DNA from: Natronomonas pharaonis DSM 2160
Lineage (GTDB): Archaea; Halobacteriota; Halobacteria; Halobacteriales; Haloarculaceae
Length of the DNA: 64,000 nt
NCBI RefSeq assembly: GCF_000026045.1
Contig: NC_007426.1
Coordinates: forward strand, 496,001 to 560,000
Direction of reading: 5' to 3'
Below the pieces are notes generated by a model, which searched no databases, was not told where the DNA came from, and was given only the letters and a program-made list of their open reading frames with translations. Positions 11,044 through 17,956 of the stretch are shown here, one piece after another. Each line of letters opens with the position of its first letter. Position 1 is the first letter of the stretch. Both the position numbers and the translations under genes were made by a program.

Positions 11044-11478
11044 TCAGCGTGGGATAATTTCGTCATTATCGTCGACGAACGTGTACTCGACGGACCCAAC
11101 GCCGTCGACGGTCCGAACGCGGCTGACGAACGTCCCGATGGCATCGACCTCACCCTCGGCGACGAAGAGTTCGAGGCACGCCTCGCCGGCGTGGCTGTGA
11201 ACGTTCGATGTGACAAGCTCGTCGTGTTCGTGCCGGAGCGTCGACAGCGACGACTCCGCGTCGGTGTCGTGGTCGAACATAACCGCAACGATACAGACGG
11301 CCGGCGATGTCGGAACCGACTGGTCGTCGAACTCGGTGAGCACCTTTCTGGTACCCTCTCTGACGGCCTCGCTGCGGCCACTGTAGTCGTGTTCGTCGAT
11401 GAACTCGTCGAGGCGGTCGAGAAGCGACGCCGGCATCGAGACGCTCACCACTGGCATACTCGACATTGTATCTCCCAC
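11044..11478 (-). CDS. nikR: NikR-like ribbon-helix-helix metal regulator 1
   Basis: A protein of 144 residues (or 140 from the internal start at 11466). The N-terminal ribbon-helix-helix domain reads 'VVSVSMPASLLDRLDEFI', and a C-terminal ACT-like regulatory domain follows. Candidate metal ligands are His83/His85, His94, His96 and Cys101. The 11-residue spacing from His83 to His94 matches NikR, although the step from the paired histidines to the cysteine appears one residue shorter than in E. coli NikR as I remember it. NikR proteins repress nickel uptake genes when loaded with metal. It is divergent from the first CobW-type GTPase, with an inverted repeat between them. Confidence 0.8.
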   Translation of the reverse strand: MGDTMSSMPVVSVSMPASLLDRLDEFIDEHDYSGRSEAVREGTRKVLTEFDDQSVPTSPAVCIVAVMFDHDTDAESSLSTLRHEHDELVTSNVHSHAGEACLELFVAEGEVDAIGTFVSRVRTVDGVGSVEYTFVDDNDEIIPR

Positions 11479-11512
11479 GGCTTATCTGTTGTTATTATAG
11501 AGTTCAGATTTC

Positions 11513-11544
11513 GTAATAGCTAGCAACTTATTAGTCTCTATTAC
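11513..11544. promoter_or_regulatory. Inverted repeat between nikR-1 and the CobW gene
   Basis: Perfect 7-base arms GTAATAG (11513-11519) and CTATTAC (11538-11544) are separated by 18 bases in the AT-rich divergent promoter region. The wide spacer between short arms is the layout of NikR operators (in E. coli 6-base arms and a 16-base spacer), though here the dyad is longer. A role as operator for one of the two NikR-like proteins is inference. Confidence 0.4.
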
Positions 11545-11557
11545 CAAAAGCACCTCG

Positions 11558-12763
11558 ATGAGCGACACAATACCGGTCACGGTACTTTCCGGAGCGCTTG
11601 GTGCCGGGAAGACGACAACGTTGAACCACGTTTTGACCGCTGACCACGGACTTGAGGTAGCCGTACTGGTCAATGACATGGGCGAAGTCAACGTCGATGT
11701 CGACCACGTCGACCAGCAGTCACAGCTCTCACAGACCGACGAGGAGGTAATCGAAATGTCGAACGGCTGCATCTGCTGTCGGCTGCGCGGCGATATGCTC
11801 GACGCAGTCGGCTCGTTGGCCGCCTCGCGGGAGTTCGACTACCTGCTCGTCGAATCGTCGGGCATTTCCGAGCCGATTCCGGTCGCACAGACGTTCACGC
11901 TCGGCTTTGAGGACGCCGACTACGACCCGACCACGGACTATCACCTCGATACGATGGTCTCGGTCGTCGACGCCCACGCGATGTACGAGGGCTTCGATTC
12001 CGGAGCCGCTCTCGCCGACGAAACTGCCGGTGGGGGCACTGACCGTGTTCCCGAGGAGGTCCTGATGGACCAAATCGAATTCTGTGATGTCCTCTTGCTC
12101 AACAAATGTGACCTCGTCCCGGACGACGAACTCGATGCCATTGAGGCGGTACTGGAGACACTCCAGCCACGGGCCGAAATCCTCCGCACTGAGTTCGGAG
12201 CGGTCGACCCGACCGACATTCTCGATACCGGCCGCTTCGACTTCGAGATGGCCCGCGACTCGGCCGGCTGGAAACACGAACTCCAACACGACCACCACCA
12301 CGACCCGAGCGAGGAGCACGGCGTCGAGTCGTTTGTCTTCCGTGCCAACCGCCCGGTCCACCCCGAGCGATTCGAGTCGCTGCTTTACGACCTGCCGGAG
12401 TCCGTCATCCGTGCCAAGGGGTTCTTCTGGTCGGCCGGCCGCGAAGACATCTCGATGGGGCTCGACAAGGCCGGCCAGTCGGTCCGTGCCGGGCCGAACG
12501 GCCGCTGGATAGCGACGCTGCCACCGCAAGAACAGCGGCGCTATCTTCAGGCGCTCCCCGGCCTCGAAGACGAGTGGGACGACCAGTGGGGCGACCGTGG
12601 TGCCGAACTGGTCTTCATCGGCCGCAACTACGACCCACAGCAGCTCGAAGCGCGGCTCGAAGCCTGCCTGCTGACTGACGACGAGATGGACGACGACTGG
12701 AGCCGCTATCCGGACCCGTTCGGAACCGAGCGCCAGCGGGAGTTCGCGCTCGCGGACGACTGA
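11558..12763 (+). CDS. CobW/COG0523 family GTPase 1 (metallochaperone)
   Basis: A protein of 401 residues. The P-loop GALGAGKTT is at residues 12-20, the switch segment 'NDMGEVNVD' near 39-47, the metal-binding CxCC motif at Cys71/73/74, a guanine motif NKCD near 185, and a C-terminal CobW_C domain after a short His cluster (HDHHHD). COG0523 GTPases deliver metals (Zn, Co, Ni or Fe) to client proteins. The next gene, one base downstream, is a paralog. Position beside nikR suggests metal-controlled expression; the metal cannot be read from sequence. Confidence 0.88.
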   Translation: MSDTIPVTVLSGALGAGKTTTLNHVLTADHGLEVAVLVNDMGEVNVDVDHVDQQSQLSQTDEEVIEMSNGCICCRLRGDMLDAVGSLAASREFDYLLVESSGISEPIPVAQTFTLGFEDADYDPTTDYHLDTMVSVVDAHAMYEGFDSGAALADETAGGGTDRVPEEVLMDQIEFCDVLLLNKCDLVPDDELDAIEAVLETLQPRAEILRTEFGAVDPTDILDTGRFDFEMARDSAGWKHELQHDHHHDPSEEHGVESFVFRANRPVHPERFESLLYDLPESVIRAKGFFWSAGREDISMGLDKAGQSVRAGPNGRWIATLPPQEQRRYLQALPGLEDEWDDQWGDRGAELVFIGRNYDPQQLEARLEACLLTDDEMDDDWSRYPDPFGTERQREFALADD

Positions 12764-12764
12764 G

Positions 12765-14042
12765 ATGTCCGTCCCCGTCACTATCCTCGCAGGCACGCTC
12801 GGAGCCGGCAAAACGACGCTGCTCAACCACGTCCTTGAGGGCGACCACGGTCGCGAGGTAGCCGTCCTCGTCAACGACATGGGCGAGGTCAACGTCGACG
12901 CCTCAGCAATCGAACGGTGGGTCGATGACAACGACGTCGTCGAGCTATCGAACGGCTGTATCTGCTGTGGAATGCAGGGCGAGCTCGAACGGGCGGTCGT
13001 CGACCTCGCGTTGGGAGAGTCGTTTGAACACCTCCTCGTCGAGCCGTCCGGTATCTCCGAGCCATCGGCGGTTGCCGAACAGTTCGCCCGCGGCCGCGCC
13101 GCCGGCTTCTACCAGCTCGCCAGTGTTACGACCGTCGTCGATGCCGAACAGTTCTACGCTGCCTTCGGCGACGGCGACGCTCGTCGCCGCGGCGCGGCTG
13201 CGGACGGCACTAGGCCACTTTCGGACCTCATCGTCGATGGTGTCGAGTTCTGTGACCGTCTCGTCGTCAACAAGCGCGACCGGGTAACCGAGGCAGAACT
13301 GGAGACCGTCGTCGAGACGATACGCACGCTCCAGCCGGACGCCGAGCTTCGGCGGACGGCGTTCGGGTCTGTCGACCCAGAGTGGCTGCTTGACGACAGT
13401 GCGTTCGATGCCGAAGCGGTCGCTGGGTCGGCCCGCTGGAAGCGGGTGCTCGAAGCATACAACGACGGTGCGGCCCAAGTTGACGGACACGCTCATACTG
13501 CCGAGGGCCACGACGACGGGAGCCACGACCACCACAGCCACGACCGTGCGGAAACCCACGACCACGAGCACGACCACGAGCACGACCACGACCACACCCA
13601 CCCTCCGGAACAGTACGGTGTCGAGTCGTTCGTCTATCGCCGCCGCCGGCCGTTCCATCCCGAGCGGCTCTCGGCAGTGTTGACCGCCCTACCGGACGAG
13701 GTCGTCCGGGCGAAAGGATGGCTCCATGTCGCCGGTCGGCCGGACCATGCGCTGCACCTATCGTTTGCAGGCTCGCAAACCCACGTCAAGGTCGCCGGCC
13801 GCTGGATCGCCTCGCTCGATGAAACAAAGCAGGACCGCTACCGCCGGCGACGGGACCCCGACTGGGACGACCAGTGGGGTGACCGAGAGACGAAGCTCGT
13901 CTTCATCGGCCAGTCGTTTGACACCGCTGCGCTTGAAGCACGGCTTGATGACTGTCTCGCCACCGAAGCCGAGCGGGTCGACGGCTGTGATGGTGTCCCG
14001 AATCCGTTCCCCGGTGCGGAGACGACGGAGGTGCGACTGTGA
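12765..14042 (+). CDS. CobW/COG0523 family GTPase 2 with His-rich loop
   Basis: A protein of 425 residues, a tandem paralog of the preceding gene. The P-loop GTLGAGKTT is at residues 10-18, the CxCC motif at Cys65/67/68, a guanine motif NKRD near 169, and a CobW_C domain at the C-terminus. Between the two domains, residues 241-280 contain 15 histidines alternating with acidic residues, a metal-storage loop seen in some COG0523 proteins and in nickel chaperones such as HypB. The gene overlaps the next one (GTGA), so the three genes from 11558 form one operon. Confidence 0.88.
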   Translation: MSVPVTILAGTLGAGKTTLLNHVLEGDHGREVAVLVNDMGEVNVDASAIERWVDDNDVVELSNGCICCGMQGELERAVVDLALGESFEHLLVEPSGISEPSAVAEQFARGRAAGFYQLASVTTVVDAEQFYAAFGDGDARRRGAAADGTRPLSDLIVDGVEFCDRLVVNKRDRVTEAELETVVETIRTLQPDAELRRTAFGSVDPEWLLDDSAFDAEAVAGSARWKRVLEAYNDGAAQVDGHAHTAEGHDDGSHDHHSHDRAETHDHEHDHEHDHDHTHPPEQYGVESFVYRRRRPFHPERLSAVLTALPDEVVRAKGWLHVAGRPDHALHLSFAGSQTHVKVAGRWIASLDETKQDRYRRRRDPDWDDQWGDRETKLVFIGQSFDTAALEARLDDCLATEAERVDGCDGVPNPFPGAETTEVRL

Positions 14043-16403: not shown

Positions 16404-16556
16404 TTAGTGGGACTGGTGAACGTGCTCGCGCAGTTCGTCCGTCTCGCCGAACGATTCGTTACAGACAGCACAGGTGTCGTGATGGAGCGCAACGTGTTGG
16501 GTGACACCGGCTGCCGATTCGAACTCCGAGTCGCAGGCCGAGCAAGCGTAGCTCAT
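16404..16556 (-). CDS. Small double C2H2 zinc finger protein (50 residues)
   Basis: A 51-codon reading frame starts at the ATG complementary to 16554-16556. The protein begins MSYACSACDSEFESAAG and contains two C2H2-type units: Cys5/Cys8 with His21 and His25 or His26, then Cys29/Cys32 with a later His pair before the C-terminus. Short haloarchaeal zinc finger proteins of this kind are common and mostly uncharacterised. A TATA-like element (complement of 'acataaaaag' at 16581-16590) is correctly spaced, and an inverted repeat flanks it. Context suggests a metal-linked regulator, but this is inference. Confidence 0.8.
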   Translation of the reverse strand: MSYACSACDSEFESAAGVTQHVALHHDTCAVCNESFGETDELREHVHQSH

Positions 16557-16708: not shown

Positions 16709-17473
16709 TCAGAAGACTCCAGTGATGAACCCAAGCCCGACGATGACGAGCACGGCCGCAGTGAGCGTCGGCAGGTACGGGGTGTACTGCTCGATTCGCT
16801 CTCGGTGGGTCTGATAGCCCGCAATCAAAAGCAACGTCGGTACGAGAATCGCGACGATGACAGCGACCGAGTAGATGAGCATGAGTTCAAGACAAAACTC
16901 CGTGCCGGCACAGATTGCCAGCACCTGAATCGGCTCCTCGTGAGCAAAGCCCAAGACAAGCGCCGTCACGCCGAGCGTTCGGAGCCCGCGTTCGGCGTCG
17001 CTCTCGTCGAGGTGTGCGTGTCCGCCGCCGTCCGGGAGGTACGACCGGACTGTGCCGACGATATTGTCAGCACCGTGCTCGTGGTGAACGTCGCTGTGCT
17101 CGTGGCTGCCGTGGTCACCACCGTGTCCGTGGTCGTGGTCGTGATGGGCATCCTCGCCGTCGCCGTGCTCGTGGACGTGTCCGCCGCTGACGTACTCGTA
17201 GATGCCGAGCAACACGAGCAATCCCCCAGCGAGCGGCTTCATCCATGGCCCCTCTGCAAAGGAGGCAAACGCACTGAACGAGACGTACGCCGCCACGAGC
17301 GCGACGCTGCTTATCAGGTGGCCGACGCCGAGTACCAGTGCCGCAACAGTTCCGCTGACCCACTGTCGCGGCTGGTCGAGCGCGTAGACGGCCGCTATCG
17401 GCCACCCGTGGTCCGGGAGTACACCGTGTACCATCCCGAGTGCGATGACGCCGGCGACGAGCGGAGCGTCCAT
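16709..17473 (-). CDS. NicO-type nickel/cobalt membrane transporter
   Basis: A protein of 254 residues with about six or seven membrane helices. Helix 1 carries the Ni/Co permease signature H-x4-D-H as His16, Asp21 and His22 in 'MVHGVLPDHGW'. A cytoplasmic or extracytoplasmic loop at about residues 99-154 is extremely rich in His and Asp, as in RcnA/NicO exporters and some importers. Direction of transport is not evident. The gene is divergent from the second NikR-like gene and the gap between them holds a near-perfect palindrome. Confidence 0.8.
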   Translation of the reverse strand: MDAPLVAGVIALGMVHGVLPDHGWPIAAVYALDQPRQWVSGTVAALVLGVGHLISSVALVAAYVSFSAFASFAEGPWMKPLAGGLLVLLGIYEYVSGGHVHEHGDGEDAHHDHDHGHGGDHGSHEHSDVHHEHGADNIVGTVRSYLPDGGGHAHLDESDAERGLRTLGVTALVLGFAHEEPIQVLAICAGTEFCLELMLIYSVAVIVAILVPTLLLIAGYQTHRERIEQYTPYLPTLTAAVLVIVGLGFITGVF

Positions 17474-17508
17474 ACCGAAACCTCCGTATTCGTTCCGTAA
17501 ACGGGTTT

Positions 17509-17537
17509 TTACTACCGAATCGTCGATTCCGTAGTAA
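17509..17537. promoter_or_regulatory. Near-perfect 29-bp palindrome, candidate NikR operator
   Basis: The arms TTACTACCGAATCG (17509-17522) and CGATTCCGTAGTAA (17524-17537) match at 13 of 14 positions around a single central base. The outer half-sites TTACTAC and GTAGTAA are 15 bases apart, close to the NikR layout of 6-base half-sites 16 bases apart. It lies 36-64 bases upstream of the transporter start and about 40 bases upstream of the second nikR-like start, so it could control both. Confidence 0.65.
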
Positions 17538-17575
17538 GCCGAACCGATATCTTCCCGGCGGCCTTAGGCCCGCGT

Positions 17576-17956
17576 ATGCGAACGAGTCTCGCTGTCCCCG
17601 AAGAACTCCTGTCGGAATTCGACGCGACGTGGCAAAAAGAGGGCCTCGACTCGCGGTCGCGTGCCATCCGGGAAGCGATGGCGGAGTACGTCGAGCGTCA
17701 CGAGGCGCTCGAAACCGCCGACGGACCGGTCGCGGGGGTCGTTGTCTTCGACTACGAACACGAGGAGGTTATCGAGAACCTCCATGGCGTCCAGCACACC
17801 TACCAGGATGTCATTGTCTCGACGAGCCACGCCCATCGGGGCGAGTGGTGTCTGGAGACGCTCTTTGTCGATGGCGACGCGGCGGCTATCCGGGAGTTGG
17901 TGTACCAGCTGAAGGATTTCGACGGCGTCCGCCGCGTTCGGACGATGGTGCTGTAG
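17576..17956 (+). CDS. nikR: NikR-like ribbon-helix-helix metal regulator 2
   Basis: A protein of 126 residues with an N-terminal ribbon-helix-helix (MRTSLAVPEELLSEFDATW) and the ACT-like NikR C-terminal domain. Candidate ligands are His74, His85, His87 and Cys92. His74-His85 spacing equals that of NikR, and the His-x-His-x4-Cys step matches its paralog at 11044. It is shorter than regulator 1 at both ends. Its divergent neighbour is the NicO-type transporter, with the palindrome between, which makes metal-dependent repression of that transporter the simplest hypothesis. Confidence 0.8.
   Translation: MRTSLAVPEELLSEFDATWQKEGLDSRSRAIREAMAEYVERHEALETADGPVAGVVVFDYEHEEVIENLHGVQHTYQDVIVSTSHAHRGEWCLETLFVDGDAAAIRELVYQLKDFDGVRRVRTMVL

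Follow-up and report, generated by a model that had tools for sequence, protein, structure and literature searches.

The NikR operator of E. coli is the inverted repeat GTATGA-N16-TCATAC (PMC7055735), and NikR sites in deltaproteobacteria follow the pattern GTGTTAC-N13/14-GTAACAC (PMC545781). When loaded with metal, the characterised NikR proteins act as repressors of uptake genes (PMC7055735). A different arrangement is that of E. coli RcnR and RcnA, in which the regulator and a single His-rich transporter share an intergenic G-tract operator (TACT-G6-N-AGTA). The solved structure closest in sequence to the regulator described here is archaeal, Pyrococcus horikoshii NikR (2bj1), for which no operator was found in the papers searched. 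The same search, which left most subscription papers outside its reach, found no publication on NikR regulation in haloarchaea.

The locus studied here lies in a 64-kb stretch of haloarchaeal DNA (hereafter the window). A 29-bp dyad at positions 17509-17537, TTACTACCGAATCG T CGATTCCGTAGTAA, separates the gene of a NikR-family regulator, NikR3, from the divergent gene of a membrane protein, a putative metal transporter. From its inverted repeat (7-N15-7, no strand assigned) and from the orthologous dyads, we propose, with a probability of about 85%, that this dyad serves the neighbouring NikR3 as its operator and would shut down both genes, giving local control together with autoregulation. Very probably, the site turns a small metal switch of two genes on and off, one that has gone unrecognised in databases.

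The regulator fold, the ligand pattern and a long inverted repeat that would be read by two ribbon-helix-helix (RHH) dimers recall the E. coli NikR/nik system, and the E. coli half-site TCATAC occurs as the right half-site in 19 of 51 haloarchaeal sequences. However, the haloarchaeal spacing is one base longer, the left half-site is TTANTAC, the core lacks symmetry and is rich in G, and in place of an ABC importer the target is one divergently encoded membrane protein under an archaeal promoter. With the deltaproteobacterial sites the haloarchaeal ones share inverted 7-mer half-sites and a metal-transport target (putative here), but they differ in half-site sequence and by the N15 spacer, and the deltaproteobacterial targets are nikMQO and nikK. 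As in RcnR/RcnA, a regulator and a single His-rich transporter would share an intergenic G-tract operator; the haloarchaeal regulator is nevertheless a NikR-type RHH protein and not RcnR/CsoR, its dyad spans 29 bp, and the transporter is distantly RcnA-like. An earlier note on this DNA had called the site close to known NikR operators. This holds for the type of dyad, since its half-sites are inverted, promoter-adjacent and two to three helical turns apart, as in NikR-type operators. It does not hold for the spacing, 7-N15-7 being one to two bases longer than 7-N13/14-7 or 6-N16-6, with N15 present in 36 of 38 gaps. Judged by sequence, the haloarchaeal site would act like published NikR operators, with its own half-sites, spacer (N15) and G-rich core.

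NikR3 and the other NikR-type proteins

NikR3 (17576-17956, forward strand, 126 aa) combines an N-terminal RHH domain (PF01402, RHH_1, 5e-6) with a C-terminal NikR_C domain (PF08753, 2.9e-20), both above the Pfam cut-offs. Its best NCBIfam match, to the PRK01002 subfamily, reached 100.9 bits against a cut-off of 111, and the curated NikR equivalog TIGR02793 gave 52.5 against 175. The annotation "CopG family" carried by plasmid copies is probably due to these missed cut-offs; for the pair, databases give only this name and "hypothetical protein". In the tree, NikR3 formed a clade separate from NikR1 and NikR2 (support 100/99), and its closest PDB match, P. horikoshii NikR (2bj1, 2.9e-18), falls in a different clade. 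Sequence comparison thus describes NikR3 as a divergent clade, for which "NikR-family" is the fitting name and not "NikR orthologue".

The predicted His/His/His/Cys ligands (H74, H85, H87 and C92) are invariant in 16 orthologues and align with the NikR proteins of P. horikoshii, H. pylori and E. coli; PDB sequences of the family gave an independent alignment. The N-terminal MRTS, which includes the DNA-reading positions of the RHH strand, is also invariant in the 16 orthologues.

Three NikR_C proteins are encoded in this 2.75-Mb genome, namely NikR1 elsewhere, NikR2 at about 11044-11478 of the window, and NikR3. A second NikR-type dyad, TTATTAT-N14-GTAATAG, lies at 11492-11519 between nikR2 (11044-11478, reverse strand) and a ZigA-like COG0523 gene (11558, forward strand), and the orthologous nikR2 gaps of Halorubrum, Haloplanus and others contain TTATGAC-N14/15-GTAATAA. 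Positions 11558-14042 hold two tandem ZigA-like COG0523 GTPase genes and, after them, a gene with a MoCF domain; the second GTPase has a His-rich stretch. Other haloarchaea have this block next to NikR3. A possible TTAAC-N16-GTTAA dyad, read by eye, is located just upstream of the NikR1 gene (about 1886-1920 of locus L001).

A dyad conserved in orthologous gaps

The earlier note described a near-perfect palindrome in the gap between two divergent genes, with 13 of 14 arm positions matching around one central base. On re-reading the sequence, the arm match (arms of 14 nt, centre of 1 nt, 93% complementarity) was confirmed, as were the flanking genes and their orientations (membrane protein, 16709-17473, reverse strand; NikR homologue, 17576-17956, forward strand); the bounds of the gap, given as 17473-17576, are 17474-17575. 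Nowhere else in the 64-kb window do 14-nt arms pair with one mismatch or none around a spacer of 0-2. TTACTAC-N15-GTAGTAA with up to three mismatches occurs once in the window, against 0.2 by chance. A position weight matrix, whose training set includes the window dyad itself, scored the dyad at 32.8 bits, while no other independent place in the window reached 8.5 bits.

Some of the 40 relatives searched encode NikR3 orthologues (about 57-69% identity), and an alignment search returned 80 further orthologues, all haloarchaeal save one Euryarchaeota MAG. The same membrane protein is encoded nearby on the opposite strand in 46 of these 80 loci. The pattern TTANNAC-N15-GTNNTA has 9 fixed bases. 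A match at 8 or more of them was present in 36 of the 38 distinct divergent gaps, where dinucleotide shuffles at the same threshold predict 0.4, and a match at 7 or more in all 38 distinct close gaps. Apart from minor counts at 12 and 18, which probably reflect a TTGTTA repeat beside the left half-site, 15 was the only spacing that worked. When loci were sampled by the transporter instead of NikR3, the dyad agreed, with nikR3 divergent in nearly all cases. Conservation in orthologous gaps, whose failure the earlier note had named as refuting, is therefore strong, and it supports the proposed self-contained divergent pair with a NikR-type dyad.

The consensus of 51 distinct sequences is GGTTG-TTANTAC-CGAANCGGGGGnnnC-GTMATAM. 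In the left half-site (TTACTAC in the window, 17509-17515, forward strand; consensus TTANTAC), T1, T2 and A3 are invariant, A6 is kept in 48 and C7 in 45 of the 51. In the right half-site (GTAGTAA, 17531-17537, forward strand; consensus GTMATAM), T24, T27 and A28 are invariant and G23 is kept in 45. Pairwise identity is about 0.8 in the half-sites and 0.30-0.36 in the outer flanks, and the mean symmetry of the dyad is highest at the centre predicted for it (0.47 vs a background of 0.25). What related operators conserve are the outer half-sites and the 15 bp between them, both pointed out in the earlier note. The near-perfect palindrome is present here but is not conserved: the arms match at 13/14 positions in the window and at 3-9/14 in all other sequences, and conservation is limited to the outer half-sites and a core that is G-rich and asymmetric. 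The right site was thus picked partly by accident, because the symmetry that drew attention to it is unique to the window. The inner arms, unconserved among the 51 sequences, were ruled out as a functional element. GGGG occurs in the core of 32 of the 51 sequences and the G-run is absent from the window's own copy; the conserved G-run region corresponds to 17521-17527 and its orthologous positions, and recalls the G-tract of E. coli RcnR.

If the palindrome had arisen by chance, or were what is left of a promoter and no operator at all, this would account for an inner-arm symmetry private to this genome, but not for 36 gaps against 0.4 expected nor for the identity of the half-sites relative to their outer flanks. 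We consider this explanation hardly credible, and for the half-sites a chance origin is already refuted by conservation across genera.

Profile searches pointed to local control, with one strong site per matching genome and no wider regulon in the nine genomes searched: the window's own genome gave one credible site (15.4 bits, E 0.077), and 7 of 8 other genomes gave one strong site each, with few extra weak matches. Some genomes depart from the usual arrangement. In G057, the dyad is kept at the transporter with nikR3 on another contig, so that action in trans is possible, and in G051 nikR3 and the dyad are both absent; these two cases agree with the operator model. Genome G071 (locus L156) is unexplained, as it keeps the transporter and the dyad, NikR3 was undetected in it, and the gene of a NikR-like protein with 38% identity lies elsewhere. 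This genome could suggest that the dyad belongs to NikR1, NikR2 or a DtxR/SirR-type protein, NikR3 being a neighbour or a second input. The closely similar dyad in the NikR2|cobW gaps and the predicted control of cbi genes by SirR in Halobacterium (PMC3600143) point the same way. However, the dyad and a divergent NikR3 co-occur almost without exception, and NikR1 homologues are found in most relatives searched, including genomes without NikR3. We judge it improbable that another regulator owns the site.

In other loci, extra DNA, probably mobile elements, splits the transporter gene (L041, genome G032) or parts the transporter from nikR3 (L066 and L067). Loci L052-L054, L070 and L087 carry NikR3 without a nearby transporter, with a variant dyad upstream (TTAGCAC-N15-GTAACAC/A) and COG0523 genes in the same loci.

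Promoter context and the proposed operator model

The edge of the dyad lies 34-41 nt from the transporter start in nearly all loci; the exceptions are distances of 48 and 56 nt in two loci with uncertain starts, and insertions in two others. The distance to nikR3 ranges from 31 to 99 nt, most commonly 35-37. In the window, these distances are 35 nt and 38 nt, respectively. Between the dyad and the transporter lies an A/T element, with A at -7 in all 51 sequences and A or T at -8 and -9 in all but one. In leaderless haloarchaeal transcripts, the TATA box is expected about 27 nt ahead of the start codon. The window has a TATA-like element (GTTTA, 17498-17502, reverse strand) at about this distance from the transporter start, by its position in the sequence the putative TATA box of the transporter promoter. 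Since the A/T element occupies the leaderless TATA position, the candidate operator would adjoin or overlap the BRE. The flank of the left half-site (GGTTT, 17504-17508, forward strand; consensus GGTTG) has a pairwise identity of 0.81 in the 51 sequences, against 0.30-0.36 for the outer flanks, and its complement is probably BRE-like for the transporter promoter. A dyad next to the BRE fits repression by blocking TFB/TBP, and also leaves room for activation.

In the model that we favour, a metal-loaded NikR3 tetramer would bind the two 7-bp half-sites via its two RHH dimers. As the TATA/BRE region of the transporter directly adjoins the proposed operator, which in most relatives lies equally close to the nikR3 start, bound NikR3 would keep out TFB/TBP and silence both genes. 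Binding by NikR3, its dependence on metal and repression rather than activation are what the sequence leads us to infer. The related dyad in the NikR2-cobW gap and the presence of NikR3 beside CbiM/CbiQ/CbiO uptake genes in several genera count for the model. Against it count the asymmetric G-rich core, unexpected for a simple symmetric NikR site, the spacer of 15 between 7-mers, longer than in published NikR operators, and the dyad of G071 without a detectable NikR3. The lack of a site near cbiM in NikR3-Cbi loci (none was found upstream of cbiM, with short upstream sequence in most loci), the modest profile score in the window's own genome, and the poor fit of the loop-free transporter to any characterised family also count against it.

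The putative transporter and a portable cassette

The membrane protein (16709-17473, reverse strand, 254 aa) carries a His-rich loop and is distantly like NicO/RcnA. Its orthologues beside NikR3 share 37-61% identity and the invariant motifs HG..P.HGWP, GHLISS-like and LGFAHEE. Among 116 well-assembled genomes, 66 encode a homologue, and one occurs in 32 of the 44 genera sampled in the order. The earlier note had labelled it a NicO transporter. Of 30 relatives, 24 matched NicO at E<=1 (best 3e-7) and 28 matched the RcnA subfamily model PRK10019 (best 7e-15). The window protein itself had no Pfam match at E 0.001, NicO included, and scored 22.5 bits with RcnA against a curated cut-off of 195. 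The signal leans on the His-rich loop: once the loop was removed, the RcnA match of the window protein was gone, two relatives tested fell to E about 0.01 with RcnA, their NicO/RcnA matches overall being marginal or absent, and no good match to any characterised family was left, so the label is weakly supported without the loop. An AlphaFold model built from 30 sequences (mean pLDDT 65) gave no significant PDB match. Next to the transporter gene, a 50-aa ORF (16404-16556, reverse strand) encodes a zinc-finger-like protein whose Cys and His motifs are paired.

NikR3 and the transporter form a portable cassette, patchy in its distribution and often plasmid-borne. In Halorubrum, Haloplanus, Haloferax, Haloglomus and Halostagnicola, NikR3 is found beside CbiM/CbiQ/CbiO, NikR2 and COG0523 GTPases, which argues for nickel or cobalt and mildly for uptake. 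In Halobacterium noricense, the cassette adjoins a heavy-metal P-type ATPase gene; this neighbour and plasmid carriage argue mildly for efflux. Nickel or cobalt is the favoured metal, and uptake appears slightly favoured over efflux. A viral carrier of NikR3 was rejected, as the viral contig collection held no relative.

The same operator could instead serve a metal-resistance switch, in which the transporter is an RcnA-like exporter and NikR3 a metal-relieved regulator or a metal-dependent activator bound just upstream of the BRE. The PRK10019 matches, the HGxEPGH motif and His-rich loop, the patchy and often plasmid-borne cassette with its P-type ATPase neighbour in H. noricense, and a dyad placed upstream of the TATA-like element and not over it would all fit. 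However, removal of the loop costs the window protein its RcnA match and weakens those of two relatives, the characterised metal-loaded NikR proteins repress uptake genes (PMC7055735), and NikR3 also adjoins Cbi uptake genes. We hold an exporter to be a tentative possibility with an appreciable, though minority, chance of being correct. A more specific proposal, doubtful at present, is that a NikR-family clade controls a new His-rich exporter family via an asymmetric G-tract operator upstream of the BRE, with metal as the on signal, opposite to classical NikR, in a cassette moving between chromosomes and plasmids.

With NikR3 as the probable owner of the dyad, the analysis places two proteins, listed as "CopG family" and "hypothetical", in a regulator clade and as its probable transporter target, and supplies a consensus for the operator. 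Since the cassette is present in the cultured genera Haloarcula, Halorubrum, Natrinema and Haloterrigena, direct tests can be made of NikR-type control at an archaeal promoter, of the metal involved and of what this new family of membrane proteins does.
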